From NCBI GenBank assembly GCA_019119495.1, contig DWWX01000035.1, positions 1 through 47,549 of the forward strand: a stretch of 47,549 bases of DNA, written 5' to 3'. The notes below the pieces were generated by a model. It ran no database searches. It saw only the letters and a list, made by a program, of their open reading frames with translations, and had not been told where the DNA came from. The translations under genes were made by a program, and so were the position numbers. Shown here piece after piece: positions 39,958-47,549 of this stretch. How positions within the stretch are numbered: position 1 is the stretch's first letter; every line of letters begins with the position of its first letter. This stretch comes from Candidatus Gemmiger stercorigallinarum (lineage in GTDB: Bacteria > Bacillota > Clostridia > Oscillospirales > Ruminococcaceae).

Positions 39958-41178
39958 GTGCCGCTTGCAAAACCAGACAAAAAGCAGGAAAAACGCCCCC
40001 GCGTGCTGCTGCTGCCGCCGTCCGCGCTGCCCATCCCGGCGGTGCGGGGCGGCGCGGTGGAAACGCTGATCACCCACCTGATCCGCGAAAACGAGCGCCA
40101 GGGCAAACTGGACATCCTGTGCGCCAGCGTGCAGGACCCGGACGCCAAGGCCGCCGCGGCCGACCTGCAGCACACCAAAATGATGTATATCACCCGCCCG
40201 CGGGGCCACCGCCGCTACTGGCCGATGGCGTTTGTCGAGCGGTGTTTTGGCGTGGCCGCGCCCTATGACCCCTGGTACCAGAAGGTGCAGCTGTCGCTGG
40301 CGCTGGAGCTGCCCCCGCCCGACTGGATCATTGCCGAGGGCGGCAACCTGACCCAGTGCGCGGCCATCAGCCGGATGTTCGGCCGCCGGCGCTGCCTGGC
40401 CCACCTGCACGGCCTGACCCAGTGCAGCCGCCAGATGGACGAGATCTACGGCGGCGTGCTGGCCCTGAGCGAGTTTATCCGGGACGAGTACCTGAAAACC
40501 AGCACCCTCGACCGCAAAAACGCCTATATCCTGCACAACTGCATCGACACCGGGCGGTTCACCCCCGGCGAGCCGGACATGGCGCTGCGGGCCTCGCTGG
40601 GGTTTGCGCCGGAGGATTTTGTCGTGCTGTTCTGCGGCCGGCTGGAACCGGACAAGGGCATCCACAAGCTGCTGGAGGCCATCGCCTCGCTGGAGGACCC
40701 CCGCGTCAAGCTGCTGATCGTGGGCAGCCCGTTTTTCGGCCGCACCCAGACCAGCCCCTTTTTGAAAAAGCTGGAGGCCGCGGCCCGCGGCCTGGGCGAC
40801 CGGGTGCGGTTCACCGGCTTTCTGCAAAACGAGTCCCTGCCGGACTACTACCGGCTGGCCGACCTGGTCTGCATGCCCACGCTGGTGCAGGAGGCCGCCG
40901 GCCTGGTGGCCATCGAGGCCATGGCCTGCGGCCGCCCGGTGCTGGCCACCCGCAGCGGTGGCCTGCCCGAATACCTGGCCGGCAGCCAGGCGGTGCTGGT
41001 GGACCTGAACCGGGACGTGCCCGGCCAGCTGGCCTTTGCCATTGAAATGCTGCGCGACCACCCGGAGCTGCGCGCCGAGATGGGCCGCGCCGGCGCCCAG
41101 GCGGCAAAGCGGTTCTCGGTGGAGGCGTTCTACAACGATTTTGTGCGCATCCTGGCGGACAGGGGGGAGCGGGCATGA
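39958..41178 (+). CDS. Glycosyltransferase family 1/GT4
   Basis: A 406-residue GT-B enzyme. The GTG start at 39958 follows AAAGGAGG with good spacing. Motifs: VLLLPPSALPIPAVRGGAVE (acceptor loop), CLAHLHGLTQCSRQMDEIY, LALSEFIRDEYLKT, ILHNCIDTGRFTPGE, VVLFCGRLEPDKGIHKLLEA, and the EX7E loop QEAAGLVAIEAMACGRPVLA, ending in a C-terminal helix. It overlaps the next gene by four bases (ATGA). Sugar specificity is unknown. Confidence 0.92.
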   Translation: MPLAKPDKKQEKRPRVLLLPPSALPIPAVRGGAVETLITHLIRENERQGKLDILCASVQDPDAKAAAADLQHTKMMYITRPRGHRRYWPMAFVERCFGVAAPYDPWYQKVQLSLALELPPPDWIIAEGGNLTQCAAISRMFGRRRCLAHLHGLTQCSRQMDEIYGGVLALSEFIRDEYLKTSTLDRKNAYILHNCIDTGRFTPGEPDMALRASLGFAPEDFVVLFCGRLEPDKGIHKLLEAIASLEDPRVKLLIVGSPFFGRTQTSPFLKKLEAAARGLGDRVRFTGFLQNESLPDYYRLADLVCMPTLVQEAAGLVAIEAMACGRPVLATRSGGLPEYLAGSQAVLVDLNRDVPGQLAFAIEMLRDHPELRAEMGRAGAQAAKRFSVEAFYNDFVRILADRGERA

Positions 41179-42233
41179 GGCCGGCCGTCTGCGTGGTGGT
41201 GCCGGTTTATAAAGCCGAGCGCACCATCGACCGCTGTGTGGCCAGTATCCTGAACCAGAAGGTCCCCGGCGGCGTGGCCTGCGTGCTGGTGGATGACGGC
41301 AGCCCGGATAGGTCGGGCGCGCTGTGCGATGCCTGGGCGGCGCGGGACCCGCGGGTGCAGGTGGTGCACAAGGCGGACGGCGGGGTCTCCAGCGCCCGCA
41401 ACGCCGGGCTGGACAGGGCCGACGCCGACTATATCGTTTTTCTGGATTCGGACGACGCGCTGCGCCCCGGCGCGCTGGCCGCCGCGCTGGCGGCCCGACG
41501 GGAACACCCCGGCAGCTTTGTGCTCTGGCATTACACCACCGACCCGCAGGATGCCGCCCCCGCTGCCCCGGCTGCGGCGGTGTACCCGCCCTCGGCGCTG
41601 GCAAGGCTGCATCTGGACTGCCTGATCGCCATGCCCTGGAATAAGCTCTACGACGCGGCGCTGGCCAAAACGCTGCGCTTTGACCGGCAGTATACCCTGG
41701 GCGAGGATCTGCAGTTTGTGCTGGATTACATTGACCTGCTGCAAAAAAGCACGCCCGGCTGGCAGTTTGCGGTGGTGGACGCGCCGCTGACCTGGTACAA
41801 CTGCGACACCGGCGGCACCAGCCTTTCCACCCGCTACCACGGGGACTACTGCGACATCTGGCCCCGCCATTTTGCCAAGCTCAACGCTGCCTGCGCGGCG
41901 CTGGGCGTTCCGGCTGGGGACCTGCTGCCGCTGCACCGCGCCCAGCTGACCGTGCTGGCCGAGGGCATTGCCGATATCCTGCGCCGGGACCCTGCCCCCA
42001 TGGGCCAGCGGCGGGACAAGGCTGCCGCCGCGCTGCGCGGCCCCTGGCTGCGGGAGCTGCTGCGCACCATGCGGGCAGAGAAAAACTACTCGCCCTATTA
42101 CCTGCCGGTGTGGTGGAAAAATCTGCACTGGCTGTATGCTGCCGCCGAGGCAAAGCGCACCGGCAGCCCGCTGTACGGCCGGCTGGACTGGCTGGGCTAT
42201 TACCTGTTTTTGGGCCGCCGCCGGCGGGAGTGA
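41175..42233 (+). CDS. Glycosyltransferase family 2
   Basis: A 352-residue GT-A enzyme, the last of the cluster. It starts RPAVCVVVPVYKAERTIDRC and has VLVDDGSPDRSGALCDAWAA, GGVSSARNAGLDRADADYIV and DxD in FLDSDDALRPGAL near residue 93. The catalytic-type motif is TLGEDLQFVLDYIDLL near 177. GGGGGAG precedes the ATG, which overlaps the upstream stop. No flippase or polymerase gene follows before the tRNA. Confidence 0.9.
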   Translation: MRPAVCVVVPVYKAERTIDRCVASILNQKVPGGVACVLVDDGSPDRSGALCDAWAARDPRVQVVHKADGGVSSARNAGLDRADADYIVFLDSDDALRPGALAAALAARREHPGSFVLWHYTTDPQDAAPAAPAAAVYPPSALARLHLDCLIAMPWNKLYDAALAKTLRFDRQYTLGEDLQFVLDYIDLLQKSTPGWQFAVVDAPLTWYNCDTGGTSLSTRYHGDYCDIWPRHFAKLNAACAALGVPAGDLLPLHRAQLTVLAEGIADILRRDPAPMGQRRDKAAAALRGPWLRELLRTMRAEKNYSPYYLPVWWKNLHWLYAAAEAKRTGSPLYGRLDWLGYYLFLGRRRRE

Positions 42234-42419
42234 CGCCGGCGGCGGCAGCAGAAACAAAAGGTGGCAGAACGCCGCGCAGGCGGGCCCTGCCCTGCAAAAA
42301 GGGACGGCCGGCGAGGGGAGCGGCGCGCCACGCCGGAGGGCGGGCGCGCGCATCCGCGCGGCCGGCCCGTGCCGGCGGCAAGTAATTTTTGGAAAAGGCA
42401 AAAATATTTGAAAAAAACC

Positions 42420-42448
42420 TTGACTTTTTGCTCCGGATGCAGTATAGT
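42420..42448 (+). promoter_or_regulatory. Promoter of tRNA-fMet
   Basis: TTGACT (42420-42425), 17-bp spacer, TATAGT (42443-42448) in an AT-rich stretch 45 bp before the tRNA. It is among the best promoters in the window. Confidence 0.85.
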
Positions 42449-42493
42449 ATATAGGCACCAAACAAGAGAGCTCTTGTGCGGGGAGCTGAATAT

Positions 42494-42570
<77 letters not shown>

Positions 42571-42574
42571 TATG

Positions 42575-42634
42575 AAATGGAGTCAAATCTTCAACAGTCT
42601 AGTGAGACTGAACGAGATTTGACTCCATTTTTTA
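42575..42634 (+). terminator. Terminator of tRNA-fMet
   Basis: A 16-bp outer stem (AAATGGAGTCAAATCT / AGATTTGACTCCATTT) and an inner hairpin CAGTCT-AGTG-AGACTG are followed by TTTTTTA. It starts five bases after the tRNA CCA. Confidence 0.88.
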
Positions 42635-42750
42635 TTGCCGTATCAAGGTTTCTCCGTATTTGGCCCATGCGACACAAATTTTCAAATCTTCTCATTTTTG
42701 AGCACGAACGGCGCCTAGTCCCCTTATTTGAACCACCTGTTGCAACAGGT

Positions 42751-43887
42751 TCAGCCAGCACTCTTTTCGTTAAAGGCGTTCTCCGCTTCATCCGGTGTTT
42801 TGTACTGGTTGGCGCGATGAGGGCGCCTTTTGTTGTAGAACTCCATATATTCGGCAACCCTTTTCTTAAATTCGTTTTCAGACCGGTAGGAGCTTCGGTA
42901 CAGTTCTTCTTGCTTCAGGGAGGAGAAGAAAGACTCCATCACGCCGTTGTCATAAGGTGTGCCCCCTTTGGAGAAGGATTGAGTCACATGGTGATCGCGC
43001 AGAAGAGTTCGGAAGGCCTGGGAGGTATACTGGCATCCCCGGTCAGAGTGGAAGATCAGATCTTCGCCGGGCTTCCTTTCCTCAAAGGCCTGCTTGAAGG
43101 TAGCAGTCACCAACTGGGTGCTTGCTCGAGGAGAGATTTTGTAGGCGATCACTTTTCTGGCATACAGATCCAGGATGGCGCAGATGTGGTATTTCTTGCC
43201 GCACACTGCAAACTGGGTGCAGTCTCCTACCCATGCCGTGTTGGGCGCACTGACGTCGAACTGGCGATTCAAAACATTGGGGGTTCCCTGGAGCTTCACC
43301 CATTTTTTGTAATCTGCCTTGGCAGTGGTACGGAAGCTGTAAAGTCCCAGATCATGCATGATGTTGAGGACGGTCTTTTTGCTGGTTTTGTATCCCCGGC
43401 TTTGCAGTACGGCAAGAATTTTATCGGATCCGAACAACCCGTGGTTTTCCTCAAAAACCTCTTTGACAGCTGCAGAAAGGTCTTTCCTCCGCTGAGTACG
43501 AAAGGAAGGCTCCTGTTTGCTTTTCATGTGATTGTAGAAAGTCCCTCGGTTGACTTCCAGAGCATCGCAGAGAACCCGGATAGGATACTGATCCGCAAGT
43601 CTTTCCATCTCAGAGAGTTTTACCGGAACTGGATCGAAAGCCGTGCAATTTACCGCCTTCAAAATCTGACAGATCTGCTCCGTCCGCTGCTGTTTTTTCC
43701 GCAGATCACTAAGGGCTCTTTGGGTGGGGATTAGATTCGGTGACAGGTTTTTGTATTGTTTCAGCCATCGGTAAATAGTGCAGCGGGCCACTTGATTTTC
43801 TTTGCTGATTTCTGTTACAGGCTTGCCATCATAGTATTCGGCGCAGCACTTCTGCACCAGTTCAATGGGATATTCATTCGTTTTCAT
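42751..43887 (-). CDS. IS3-family transposase, single ORF
   Basis: The 378-residue protein joins an N-terminal helix-turn-helix (KPVTEISKENQVARCTIYRW) and a coiled-coil region (LSDLRKKQQRTEQICQIL) with the HTH_21 and rve integrase core. DDE residues are visible: AWVGDCTQFAV (first D), FHSDRGCQYTS (second D) and NGVMESFFSSLKQEE (E). OrfA and OrfB are normally joined by a frameshift in IS3 elements; here they are one frame. AAGGAGGG precedes ATG 43887; an in-frame ATG at 43974 with AAAGGAG would add 29 residues. The frame is intact, so the element may be active. Confidence 0.9.
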   Translation of the reverse strand: MKTNEYPIELVQKCCAEYYDGKPVTEISKENQVARCTIYRWLKQYKNLSPNLIPTQRALSDLRKKQQRTEQICQILKAVNCTAFDPVPVKLSEMERLADQYPIRVLCDALEVNRGTFYNHMKSKQEPSFRTQRRKDLSAAVKEVFEENHGLFGSDKILAVLQSRGYKTSKKTVLNIMHDLGLYSFRTTAKADYKKWVKLQGTPNVLNRQFDVSAPNTAWVGDCTQFAVCGKKYHICAILDLYARKVIAYKISPRASTQLVTATFKQAFEERKPGEDLIFHSDRGCQYTSQAFRTLLRDHHVTQSFSKGGTPYDNGVMESFFSSLKQEELYRSSYRSENEFKKRVAEYMEFYNKRRPHRANQYKTPDEAENAFNEKSAG

Positions 43888-44001
43888 AAGGATTCCCTCC
43901 TTGCGCTGATCGATGGAAAGTGACGAGCGACTGGTGTTCTGCCTATCGACAGACGAATTCTTTGCTTTTTTCATACGAATGCTCCTTTCTGAAACATGAC
44001 A

Positions 44002-44034
44002 ACAAAAAACCGCCTTGAAAAAATCAAGACGGTT
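44002..44034 (-). terminator. Terminator shielding the transposase gene
   Basis: On the minus strand AACCGTCTTGA / TCAAGGCGGTT forms an 11-bp stem (one G-T pair) followed by TTTTTT. It lies upstream of the transposase start, inside the element, where it would block transcription entering from outside and so limit transposase expression. Confidence 0.75.
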
Positions 44035-44245
44035 CATACGATATAGTATATTGACTTTGGGTGGTGGCAAAGGGGAAGGCTGTATTGCTTTTAGCCTCAT
44101 TCTAGTCCCTCCTTGACTCAAGGAGTTTTATGCCTTCTTTCTAATTCTAGAGTAGCACGACCAAGGGAGAAAATCAACCTAACTTTTTGTGCTAACTTTG
44201 CAGAGTATTTGATTGAACACTTACAGTGAGACATACTGGATTGCC

Positions 44246-44274
44246 TTGTGAGATGAATCTTTTTATATTATACT
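44246..44274 (+). promoter_or_regulatory. Retron promoter
   Basis: TTGTGA (44246-44251), 17-bp spacer, TATACT (44269-44274). The expected start site, about seven bases after the -10, is at G44281, the first base of the predicted a1 arm. A 10-bp inverted repeat (44218-44227 with 44272-44281) brackets the promoter and could be an operator. Confidence 0.7.
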
Positions 44275-44280
44275 GTAAGT

Positions 44281-44414
44281 GAGCATATGGCAAGATTTTG
44301 TACTCGCGCATCGCGGGTGTTGACTAAAATGGCAGGAAGTTTAGCTCTCCTCCATCATTTCGGCGGTACAGTTGTAATCCTGGTCCTCCACGCATAATGA
44401 GTTGCCATGTGCTC
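44281..44414 (+). ncRNA. Retron msr-msd RNA
   Basis: The outer a1/a2 stem is 44281-44293 (GAGCATATGGCAA) with 44402-44414 (TTGCCATGTGCTC), 13 bp with a single G-U pair. The next base, G44294, is the likely branching guanosine, in the context GGCAAGATTTTG, which from memory resembles GGCAGATTTG of retron Ec67. An msr hairpin with a 7-bp stem and CAT loop is at 44302-44318. The msd should begin near GGCAGGA (44331), which can pair with 44378-44386; the inner msd fold is not clear to me. It lies directly before the reverse transcriptase, as in known retrons. Confidence 0.75.
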
Positions 44415-44436
44415 TTCTTTGTTAGGGGATTGTACT

Positions 44437-46122
44437 ATGGCAAAGTTTTGCGATATTACTTCAAGAAATGATTTGGCGGATTTTTTAGAAATTCCTCGAA
44501 AAGTCTTGACGTATGTTTTATATGTCAAAAAAACGGAAAACTTTTATGCTTCATTTGAGATACCGAAGAAAAATGGTGGAACTCGTACAATCATAGCCCC
44601 ATCAGGCGAACTCAAATCTATCCAAAAAAAGCTGGCAAGGGAGTTAGAGCGATATCAGCAAGACATTTGGGCGAGTAAGGGAATAAAACCTAATCTGTCA
44701 CACGGATTTCAAAAGAAGAAAAGCATTGTTACAAATGCCAGAATACATAGAAACAAAAAATACGTACTAAACATCGACTTGCAGGATTTTTTCGATAGTT
44801 TTCATTTTGGTCGAGTGAGAGGATTTTTTCATAAGAACAAAGACTTTGCTTTGCCCATAGAAGTTGCGACCGTACTTGCGCAATTAACATGTTTTGAAGG
44901 ACGCTTGCCACAGGGGGCACCTACATCTCCCGTTGTAACAAATTTGCTTTGCCAAATTTTGGATAATAGGTTGCTTGGAATTGCGAAGAAGTACAAGCTC
45001 GATTATACGAGATACGCCGACGATTTGACATTTTCGACAAACGACAAAATGTTTGTTGAGCATAAAGACGAGTTTCTTCGCACAATTCAAAAAGAAATTG
45101 AGCATGCAGGCTTTAAAGTTAACGAGAATAAAACGAGGCTGGCATACAAAGATTCGCAGCAAAAGGTAACCGGGCTTGTCGTGAATGAAAAAGTAAATGT
45201 TGCACAAGAGTATTACAGAAGAACAAAGTCGATGGCTCATTCCCTTTATAAAACCGGTGAATTTACCATCGATGGTGAGGTAGGCACGCTTCAGCAACTG
45301 GAAGGCCGTTTCTCTTTTATAAATCAACTTACTTGGCATAACAACAGGCAAGATGGGAAAGAGCATAGTTTTGGAACCTTATCCGGACGAGAACGGGAAT
45401 TCAAGAGATTCCTCTTTTATAAATTCTTTTATGGAAACGATATTCCAATCATTGTGACAGAAGGAAAAACAGATGTTCGCTATTTAAAAGCAGCGTTGAA
45501 AGCTTTGCATAAAGATTATCCTGATCTCATCGAAAAAAATAAAGATGGAAAATTTGAGTTCAAGATAGTGTTTTTTAAACGCACAGAAAGATTGCGGTAT
45601 TTCTTAGGGATTCAGTTGGATGGTGCAGATGCAATGCAAAGTGTTTATAAGTATTTCGTAGGAGGAAAAGGACGAGAAAGCAAAAACTATCCAAACTATT
45701 TTGCCTACTTTCAACGCATGGGAGCGCAACCCAAGAAATCAACGATTCTTCTGTTCGATAACGAAACAAAAAGTAAGCGCCCTTTGGGAAAACTGTTGAC
45801 TGAACAGAAATTTACAGAAGAACAGATTCGAAAACTAAAACAAGAGTTGCACTTAAAAGTGTTGGATAAAGGAAACCTGTATTTGCTGACGAATCCACTA
45901 GTTCCAGGTGAAGAGGAGTGTGAAATTGAATATCTATTTTCGGAAGAGACGCGTAGCACGCTCATCGATGGGAAAAGTTTGTGCCTAAAAGACAAGTATG
46001 ATACTGAAAAGTATTATGGAAAAGAAATCTTTTCTCAACACATAACAGATCATTTTGAGCAGATTGATTTTAGTGGTTTTCGACCTTTATTGGATGCTTT
46101 AACTTCTATTGTTCGTCAATGA
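44437..46122 (+). CDS. Retron reverse transcriptase fused to TOPRIM domain
   Basis: A 561-residue two-domain protein. Residues 1 to about 320 are a retron RT: NARIH (100-104, the retron NAxxH motif), NIDLQDFF (112-119), LPQGAPTSP (157-165), catalytic YADD (193-196) and VTG (244-246, the retron VTG motif). Residues 335-561 are a TOPRIM/OLD-like nuclease domain: VTEGKTD (340-346, catalytic Glu), LLFDNE (438-443, a D-x-E in place of the usual D-x-D) and EIEYLF near 496. RT-TOPRIM fusion is the layout of retron Ec67. ATG 44437 has AGGGGA seven bases upstream; ATG 44407 lies inside the a2 arm and is rejected. Codon use is AT-rich, unlike the host. Confidence 0.92.
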   Translation: MAKFCDITSRNDLADFLEIPRKVLTYVLYVKKTENFYASFEIPKKNGGTRTIIAPSGELKSIQKKLARELERYQQDIWASKGIKPNLSHGFQKKKSIVTNARIHRNKKYVLNIDLQDFFDSFHFGRVRGFFHKNKDFALPIEVATVLAQLTCFEGRLPQGAPTSPVVTNLLCQILDNRLLGIAKKYKLDYTRYADDLTFSTNDKMFVEHKDEFLRTIQKEIEHAGFKVNENKTRLAYKDSQQKVTGLVVNEKVNVAQEYYRRTKSMAHSLYKTGEFTIDGEVGTLQQLEGRFSFINQLTWHNNRQDGKEHSFGTLSGREREFKRFLFYKFFYGNDIPIIVTEGKTDVRYLKAALKALHKDYPDLIEKNKDGKFEFKIVFFKRTERLRYFLGIQLDGADAMQSVYKYFVGGKGRESKNYPNYFAYFQRMGAQPKKSTILLFDNETKSKRPLGKLLTEQKFTEEQIRKLKQELHLKVLDKGNLYLLTNPLVPGEEECEIEYLFSEETRSTLIDGKSLCLKDKYDTEKYYGKEIFSQHITDHFEQIDFSGFRPLLDALTSIVRQ

Positions 46123-46139
46123 GGGGCGAGGGGATGTAA

Positions 46140-46991
46140 ATGCAGATGGATAATTCAAACCTTTCCGATATTTCAATGTGGCAGTATAACCAGCATGAAA
46201 TAAAACAAAACAAGGATATTCACAAAGCAATCAAAGGCCTGAGAGAAATAGAATATTTCTTAAAAGAATTTGGTTGCCTTTCCTTTGGGAGAGACTTCAT
46301 TGTATGTGAGGAAAAGCCCTTCACATTGCAGGGGCTCATTACTTCGCTGGAATTTACAGCAGGAAGTATAATTAGCTGCTGCGAGTCTGGTTGTTTGGCA
46401 GATGCTAACACGTTACTGCGAAAATATAAGGATGATCTCTTTTTCTACCTCTACCTTGTTGCTTATGACAGTGATTGCAAAATAGCTGAACCCTCGAAAA
46501 GGACAAGGAAAATGGAGAAAAATATTCAACGATGGCTTAGAAACGAACTCGGTGATCTGGGGATTGGTCAAATTCTTAAAGAAATCGGAACATCACCTCA
46601 GGTAACCGAAGCCGTGATGAAATACCACTTGCAGAAATATTTGGAGAAAATCAGGGATCGTCTCAACAACTATGTTCATGGTAATGGAATTGCATATTAC
46701 AACAGAAGTGTAAATTCCTATAAAGAGAGCGTCTTGGAAAAACATATTTCAAATCTCTTGCTCGATATGAGATTTGTGACGGTCACTTTTTTGTTTTTGC
46801 TCACAATGTTCAATCCCGCATTTATCATGTCAACGGATTATGTAGACTGCTTGGACTGTTCGATGACGCCTCCTGAAGATTCGCAATACTGGGTGGCGCC
46901 GTTTATCACGGAGTTCTTTCAAAAAAATTTAGACCTAATTGATAAAAATGGTATTGCATATCTTTCAGAAAAAACAAATATGCAGTTTTAG
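46140..46991 (+). CDS. Retron-linked protein with HEPN-like motif, unknown family
   Basis: A 283-residue protein I do not recognise, 17 bp downstream of the RT-TOPRIM gene with GAGGGG upstream, so almost certainly cotranscribed. It is largely helical. Residues 174-180 read RLNNYVH followed by GNG, an R-x5-H pattern typical of HEPN ribonuclease domains. A hydrophobic segment at 211-230 (FVTVTFLFLLTMFNPAFIM) could be a membrane helix or buried core. Two Cys pairs (CC at 80-81, CLDC at 237-240) are notable. By position it would be an effector or accessory of the retron; function is inference. Confidence 0.75.
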   Translation: MQMDNSNLSDISMWQYNQHEIKQNKDIHKAIKGLREIEYFLKEFGCLSFGRDFIVCEEKPFTLQGLITSLEFTAGSIISCCESGCLADANTLLRKYKDDLFFYLYLVAYDSDCKIAEPSKRTRKMEKNIQRWLRNELGDLGIGQILKEIGTSPQVTEAVMKYHLQKYLEKIRDRLNNYVHGNGIAYYNRSVNSYKESVLEKHISNLLLDMRFVTVTFLFLLTMFNPAFIMSTDYVDCLDCSMTPPEDSQYWVAPFITEFFQKNLDLIDKNGIAYLSEKTNMQF

Positions 46992-47095
46992 TAGGCTCTA
47001 TTGGATTTTTGGAAGAATACCTACACATATCTTTTGCAATAGACGTTTTGGCATAACGAGGATTTTTCAATATGTCCCAAAATGATGGAGTGATT

Positions 47096-47248
47096 ATGAC
47101 GATGAACCCATATGAGCAGAAAATAATTTTGGAAAGAGTTCCATCAAAGCCGGAGGCAGCAGAAAAGCAAGCCGACCTCGGAAAAGTACTCCCTGCCGAG
47201 GAAGCTCTTGCTGTACCGATAGAAAAATACGGTGCTATGTCATACTAA
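47096..47248 (+). CDS. Small hypothetical protein, 50 residues
   Basis: A short ORF: MTMNPYEQKIILERVPSKPE then a Lys/Ala/Glu-rich helix-like part and the ending EKYGAMSY. GGAG stands five bases before ATG 47096; an in-frame ATG at 47072 would give 58 residues. It is hydrophilic with no membrane segment. It lies 104 bp after the HEPN-like gene and could belong to that transcript or be a remnant of mobile DNA. I know no family. Confidence 0.4.
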   Translation: MTMNPYEQKIILERVPSKPEAAEKQADLGKVLPAEEALAVPIEKYGAMSY

Positions 47249-47292
47249 AGTTTTATGAATATAATAATATGGGATTCGCAGGGGGATTTGGT

Positions 47293-47484
47293 ATGACTGT
47301 GTCTGTTGTAGTACTTATATTTCTCGTTGCATTTTTCTTGGCTCTTATGTTGATATGGGGCATTTTGCTGTTTGTGTATGTGCGAGAAAAGAGCATTACT
47401 CCAGCAAAAGAATTTTTCCTGGAAAGAGATTTGTCAAGGGTAAATTACACCTCATGTCCCATGGGTATCTTAATTTCGTCTTAA
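47293..47484 (+). CDS. Small single-span membrane protein
   Basis: A 63-residue ORF starting MTVSVVVLIFLVAFFLALML, one long hydrophobic helix (about residues 3-32) followed by a charged segment YVREKSITPAKEFFLERDLS. AGGGGG lies seven bases before ATG 47293; ATG 47269 in the same frame is possible. It could be a small membrane protein or the remnant of a larger gene. No family recognised. Confidence 0.4.
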   Translation: MTVSVVVLIFLVAFFLALMLIWGILLFVYVREKSITPAKEFFLERDLSRVNYTSCPMGILISS

Positions 47485-47524
47485 TGTCAGTCTTGCCATC
47501 TTTATGGCATAACAAGGTCTCTTA

Positions 47525-47533
47525 TGCTATAAT
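47525..47533 (+). promoter_or_regulatory. Extended -10 promoter leading out of the window
   Basis: TGCTATAAT at 47525-47533, an extended -10 of good quality with a weak -35. It is 17 bases before the window end, and a GAGG-containing sequence follows, so another gene probably begins just outside. Confidence 0.5.
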
Positions 47534-47549
47534 AAATTACCTAGAGGAC

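Follow-up and report, generated by a model that had tools for sequence, protein, structure and literature searches.

An Ec67-Type RT-Toprim Retron with a D-x-E Toprim Site

Organization of the Locus

The window (the whole stretch of DNA analyzed, 47549 bases) carries at 44437–46122 the RT-Toprim fusion of an Ec67-type (type I-C) retron, which confirms the original observation. The label "type I-C" was taken from PADLOC. The locus is an ordinary type I-C retron, of a kind already known. Its features and those of its flanks are listed below (window coordinates, strand, description, and basis).

42494..42570, +, tRNA-Met bordering the AT-rich stretch
42751..44121, −, transposase ORF of the IS3 family, between tRNA-Met and retron (NF033516, 313 bits; mechanical ORF limits)
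44241..44274, +, candidate promoter of two overlapping sigma-70-like sites (consensus scan, weak alone)
44280..44415, +, Ec67-type msr-msd ncRNA (R2 covariance model, from which the window was left out)
44281..44293, +, inverted repeat a1 (inverted-repeat pairing; helix 1, two-sided changes in 12 of 13 pairs over 18 loci)
44294, +, predicted branching guanosine, counterpart of Ec67 rG15 (G directly after a1 in 18 of 18 ncRNAs)
44300..44320, +, msr stem-loop (position; helix 2, changes on both sides in 7 of 8 pairs)
44331..44400, +, predicted msd template for an msDNA of about 70 nt (Ec67 alignment; ends inferred)
44402..44414, +, inverted repeat a2 (inverted-repeat pairing with a1)
44437..46122, +, RT-Toprim fusion of 561 aa (RT about 1–330 and Toprim about 335–561, by Ec67 alignment)
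46140..46991, +, 283-aa gene, probably separate cargo (absent from other Ec67-type loci)

The reading frame of the fusion is open from the ATG at 44437 to the stop codon at 46120–46122. The start is preceded by AGGGGA (44424–44429), and a further in-frame ATG at 44407 falls within the a2 repeat.

The Fusion Protein Belongs to the Ec67 Family

The NCBIfam model NF038237 (Ec67 retron) matched residues 1–560 with 647.5 bits (cut-off, 450), and the solved Ec67 protein aligned with residues 7–558 (E = 4.3e-122). The PADLOC model RT-Toprim_I-C scored 809.7 bits, compared with 331 bits for the best model of another kind (type XII). PADLOC types XI (RT-protease) and XII (RT-TIR) likewise join a retron RT to an effector, as judged by their model names, but they reach at most 331 bits with the window protein and cover its RT part only. 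The Pfam Toprim model alone gave a weak match (E = 0.098).

The retron RT motif NAxxH is present as NARIH (residues 100–104), followed by YADD (193–196) and VTG (244–246). The Toprim part contains TEGKTD (341–346) and DNET (441–444), and its metal-site and lysine residues are E342, D346, D441, E443, E496, E498, and K529. The motifs and positions given in the earlier note are correct in the translation.

The structure, predicted from an alignment of 43 rows with Ec67-like rows among them, had a mean pLDDT of 91.6 and a pTM of 0.84. Its five best fold matches were chains of Retron-Eco2 (TM 0.80–0.81, 595–597 columns, rmsd 4.2–4.5), including one from a structure titled activated Eco2; the matches ranking after them cover the RT part only. 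The predicted structure follows Ec67 through both the RT and the Toprim parts, which speaks for the presence of a Toprim fold in the window protein. In a tree of 58 RT domains, made by a quick method, the window RT lay inside the RT-Toprim clade (26 rows, SH-aLRT 100), as opposed to the 32 other retron-like RTs, and this grouping likewise favors its assignment to the retron RTs.

A Conserved msr-msd RNA Precedes the Gene

We collected 18 Ec67-type ncRNAs, including that of E. coli NCTC8623 (L034), whose protein has 586 aa, the same length as given for Eco2 in the accessible text of PMC12405507. Common to the aligned ncRNAs are a1, the trinucleotide AGA enclosing the branch G without variation, AUUU or a close variant after it, a stem-loop, an msd that varies, and GAGT, likewise invariant, where a2 begins. 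In the two helices, 19 of the 21 pairs had changes on both sides, 95.5% of 375 cells were paired, and 0 of 500 shuffles scored as high. As the ncRNAs had been chosen partly by a1/a2 pairing, the covariation in helix 1 is partly circular; helix 2 and the R2 search are free of that bias, and R2 without the window is therefore the cleaner test. This covariance model was built from 16 Ec67-type ncRNAs, with the window and the Anaeromassilibacillus sp. An200 locus (L002) left out. Its sole match up to E = 1 in the 47549 bases was 44280–44415 (98 bits, E = 5.4e-21). The family and ncRNA matches are well beyond chance, and the earlier note was right in describing a complete RT-TOPRIM retron with an msr-msd region, which is of the Ec67 kind.

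Over 88 sources, R2 matched 57 (the window, L002, L027, L029, L030, L033, and 51 of the 82 loci L037–L118), part of these matches being near copies of model sequences, such as L041, L042, and L083 (the Ec67 protein itself). Among the 52 full-length intact RT-Toprim loci in L037–L118, it missed three (L037, L072, and L079), where little or no upstream DNA is available. No match was found in the 25 viral loci of L091–L116 (L110 excluded) whose RT is without the Toprim motif, nor in L118, the partial L090, or the fragment L110. A search of positions 41000–47549 against Rfam, with matches up to E = 5, returned no retron family. Folded alone, the RNA of 44240–44436 showed modest stability (z = −2.0; 4 of 200 shuffles equal). 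A strong DNA hairpin in the msDNA was considered but is not supported, since the fold of the predicted msDNA does not surpass that of shuffled sequence (z = −0.35). The Ec67 RT gene of E. coli NCTC8623 is annotated as starting at 2597, within the ncRNA (2548–2679); its likely start is 2717.

The branch G and the template were placed by alignment with rG15 and template 52–118 of Ec67; the role of rG15 is described in section 6 of PMC12405507, in its accessible text. The window ncRNA follows the Ec67 order of a1, G, A-rich/U-rich linker, stem-loop, msd, and a2. It differs in a predicted msDNA of 70 nt, compared with 67 in Ec67, and in an extra base before a2 (AATGAG vs AAG-GAG in Ec67).

Two overlapping sigma-70-like sites, TTGCCT-17-TATATT (44241–44269) and TTGTGA-17-TATACT (44246–44274), each with 9 of 12 consensus matches, lie just before a1. 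Positions 43900–47549 contained 14 such sites (shuffle mean, 9.3). Twelve of the 18 loci had a −10-like box with five or six matches at most 24 nt from a1, compared with about 3.6 expected from the summed per-locus shuffle rates. For the intact promoter of the earlier note, then, this comparative signal near a1 is in favor, while the consensus matches themselves are weak. A perfect 10-nt inverted repeat, CACTTACAGT/ACTGTAAGTG (44218–44227 and 44272–44281), flanks the promoter; as an operator it was discarded, since it occurs only in the loci that are window DNA (3 of 138).

A decayed or silent retron, suggested by the nearby contig end and IS element and by broken relatives (L027, L029, L030, L033, and L002, the last near residues 30–41), is hardly to be expected at this locus, where the frame is open, the catalytic residues are all present, and the full ncRNA has compensated pairs. 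We read the locus as intact; direct support exists for the conserved ncRNA, for the gene with its homology and predicted fold, and for its catalytic residues.

The Downstream Gene Is Probably Separate Cargo

The 283-aa gene lies on the same strand as the fusion, 17 nt past its stop codon, and its product weakly matches PDC-S52 (E = 0.00045), DUF6988 (E = 0.0046), and DUF5677. This close spacing, together with the PDC-S52 and DUF6988 matches, might point to a two-gene system in which the product is a needed partner or a second effector. A tblastn search of 138 loci detected the gene outside the window copies only in G885 (L130 and L136) and, as a weak match, in G881 (L131). The other Ec67-type loci of this set gave no match, the 77% relative L002 included. 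A search of 245 genomes of the order, its own included, gave three matches: its own, one at 50%, and one weak. The 50% relative (G885, L136 4040–4849) directly precedes HamA/HamB of a Hachiman system.

A conserved retron partner was rejected on the absence from the other Ec67-type loci among the 138 and on the relative beside Hachiman. A two-gene system is very unlikely on these grounds, and the L012 and L025 loci also carry different genes close downstream. The 283-aa gene is probably a separate cargo gene, and possibly an unrecognised defence-island gene.

Two side observations concern the neighbors of related genes. The relative in L136 sits after a protein with a weak HEPN_Swt1 match. About 30 nt downstream of other Ec67-type retrons lie different putative defence genes, at L012 5711–6577 (PDC-S64/DUF3644-like) and L025 6559–7713 (DUF2971).

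Genomic Surroundings

The RT gene has a G+C content of 37.7%, compared with 65.2% for positions 1–42480 of the window, which bears out the AT-rich copy in a GC-rich genome reported earlier. With this low G+C and its position behind the tRNA-Met and the IS3-family gene, a recent acquisition is plausible; it is graded no higher because the contig ends at 47549, 1.4 kb past the RT gene. Neither IS ends nor tRNA att repeats turned up in a simple scan that used ungapped arms and exact 14-mers within the window, and no second copy of the IS3-family gene was found in its own genome (86.6% complete).

An AT-rich end joined in assembly or binning, with a locus foreign to the host, was also considered. 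The genome is a draft of 44 contigs, 86.6% complete, and in four genomes of the same genus (G1391, G1395, G1399, and G1408), among the matches listed, the tRNA and the preceding gene (41175–42233, glycosyltransferase-like by eye) lie on different contigs. Behind the tRNA, G1395 has DNA of 52–57% G+C with no match to the AT-rich part. Against a misjoin, G1391 (L133 3220–10001) has AT-rich DNA and a 122-bp piece of the same IS (90%) behind the same tRNA-Met, and the similarity to G1408 continues past the tRNA to the contig end. Moreover, the nearest RT relative found is from Anaeromassilibacillus (Acutalibacteraceae, Clostridia). The findings fit a variable island at the tRNA-Met site and are compatible with a misjoin as well, which we regard as improbable. 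The AT-rich DNA behind the tRNA-Met in G1391 may mark an island hotspot.

The Toprim Metal Sites and the Trimer Loop

The metal sites were compared across 70 aligned proteins (63 distinct). L013 (a near copy of L012), L027 (internal stop), L029 and L033 (both with frame breaks), L030 (gene split), and, of the 82 loci L037–L118, 30 that were not full length or not intact were left out, and L002 was included from residue 30 onward. The viral rows derive from the best 80 of 376 relatives, and hence represent the closest part of a larger set. Ec67 residues E374, D378, D460, E515, and K546 were invariant in all 70 rows; their window counterparts are E342, D346, D441, E498, and K529. Section 11 of PMC12405507, in its accessible text, gives the catalytic lysine of Eco2 as K562. 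In the L034 Ec67 protein, position 562 is Asp and the invariant Lys is K546.

Position 462 of Ec67 is Asp in 54 rows and Glu in 16. The window reads D441-x-E443, so a literal DxD motif is absent; as 16 of the 70 family rows have D-x-E, this form was not used to exclude membership in the Ec67 family. At the site of Ec67 S513, Glu occurs in 14 of the 16 D-x-E rows, including the window (E496), and in 0 of the 54 D-x-D rows. According to the accessible text of PMC12405507, D462 of Eco2 is a metal A residue and S513 a metal B residue, and therefore both sites are altered on the same side of the tree. The 16 D-x-E rows form one clade (SH-aLRT 100, branch 0.72), for which one change suffices, in a tree made by a quick method without bootstrap after removal of the motif columns and containing some long rows, such as Lactiplantibacillus. 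The D-x-E of the Toprim domain pointed out in the earlier note is thus real at D441/E443, but it is a lineage-wide form, not peculiar to the window copy.

Six of the 16 D-x-E rows carry an organism name, and all six are Bacillota (Anaeromassilibacillus, Listeria, two Enterococcus, Staphylococcus, and Lactiplantibacillus). The remainder comprise the window, the genomes G929, G915, G090, G046, and G1352 of the same phylum, and four viral or faecal contigs. The six D-x-D rows with an organism name (of 54) are all Pseudomonadota, and the other 48 are viral contigs. A description of the D-x-E form was not found in the literature searched, whose coverage excludes most subscription journals.

The trimer contact of Eco2 is the loop 328–342, in which R332A abolishes defence while trimer formation is only partly impaired (PMC12405507, accessible text). 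Around this loop, the window protein has 13 residues compared with 27 in Ec67, none of them aligned to R332. The R332 position is empty in 14 of the 16 D-x-E rows and in 20 of the 54 D-x-D rows. With so many empty rows of both kinds, the Eco2 loop is not general and does not define the family, and we discarded its loss as a trait of the D-x-E clade.

Could the same retron carry an effector that shifted in this branch to another metal, another nucleic acid, or another assembly? The single change to D-x-E in 16 of 70 rows, on a long and well-supported branch, the Glu at the S513 site, and the empty R332 position in most D-x-E rows are consistent with such a shift. However, the remaining catalytic residues are invariant in all 70 rows, Glu can bind the same metals, the predicted fold follows Eco2, and, with its position empty in D-x-D rows as well, the loop is not a requirement across the family. 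We consider the shift rather unlikely. A further reading, which we raise tentatively and hold to be rather unlikely, is that the RT-Toprim retrons of the D-x-E clade form a distinct subclass. Ec67 D462 and S513 would both have become Glu on a single branch, remodeling the two metal sites, and with the loop of the Eco2 trimer contact missing in most members, the nuclease chemistry, target, or silenced assembly would be unlike that of Ec67.

The two lineages offer a testable contrast between Ec67, which is solved and has D-x-D with the trimer loop, and the present lineage with D-x-E, a second Glu in most members, and no loop in most of them. Should both still be RNases in a silenced complex, the loop could be done without and the metal-site change would be neutral; otherwise, one retron type would comprise two effector modes. 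This lineage-wide double Glu change is the point most worth specialist attention.

Proposed Mechanism

The reading that we prefer is that the window very probably contains an intact Ec67-type (type I-C) retron with Retron-Eco2-like silencing, a phage trigger, and a Toprim RNase effector. Branching, the msDNA ends, silencing, the trigger, and the RNase activity are carried over by analogy from Ec67 (Retron-Eco2), for which the accessible text of PMC12405507 describes a silenced msDNA-RT-Toprim complex, its release on phage attack, and RNA degradation. The ncRNA (44280–44415) and the RT-Toprim gene would be produced as one joint transcript, in which a1/a2 pairing would present the guanosine at 44294. 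The RT would prime at G44294 through a 2',5' bond and copy about 70 nt, from 44400 back to 44331, into msDNA. The msDNA-RNA may then keep the fused Toprim nuclease in an inactive complex, until some phage activity damages or binds the msDNA and sets the nuclease free. The freed Toprim would act as a metal-dependent RNase, and with its RNA degraded, the infected cell would yield no phage. For Eco2, a DenB-like nuclease is implicated as the trigger by escaper mutants, whereas the direct assay failed because DenB is toxic (PMC12405507, accessible text).

Relation to Known Retrons and Distribution

Retron Ec67, also called Retron-Eco2 (E. coli; NF038237; PDB 9i2f, 9lm3, and 9s1f), is a full-length counterpart of the window RT-Toprim fusion in sequence and predicted fold, and shares its RT motifs and the Toprim residues E, D, D, E, and K. 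The window differs from it in having D-x-E instead of D-x-D, Glu instead of S513, and the shorter trimer-loop region. The Anaeromassilibacillus locus L002 is 77% identical in protein, and its ncRNA and gene are 76% alike in DNA, but it has the frame break near residues 30–41, other neighbors, and no 283-aa gene. The Ec67-family loci of Enterococcus, Listeria, Staphylococcus, and Lactiplantibacillus belong to the D-x-E clade and have the same ncRNA plan, with proteins 41–55% identical to that of the window; they come from the plasmid collection, and their neighbors differ. The Ec67 plan of ncRNA, branch G, and RT-Toprim is preserved across a deep split.

The stress that the earlier note lays on Proteobacteria, where it calls known RT-TOPRIM retrons best studied, is overstated, as TOPRIM retrons also occur outside that group: plasmid records of Enterococcus and Staphylococcus in the plasmid collection already carry the annotation "retron Ec67 family," and an Ec67/retron-TOPRIM in S. 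aureus is already in print, as seen in the accessible part of PMC8765062.

The Ec67-type retron is rare per genome yet spread. With the genome of the window included in each set, NF038237 exceeded its cut-off in 3 of 391 (class), 2 of 398 (phylum), and 3 of 394 (order) genomes. It also did so in 2 of 250 genomes from the class of G772, one of the two being G772 itself, which has internal stops. Neither P0002 nor P0001, used as single-protein queries, picked up a relative in scans of the viral_contigs collection. In the plasmid collection, 22 records contain a region that spans at least 80% of the query; several of these records are as large as a chromosome or megaplasmid. One Ec67-family allele (query L017:3600-5740) was covered to at least 80% in 512 of 5426 E. 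coli genomes, with 510 records of at least 99% identity.
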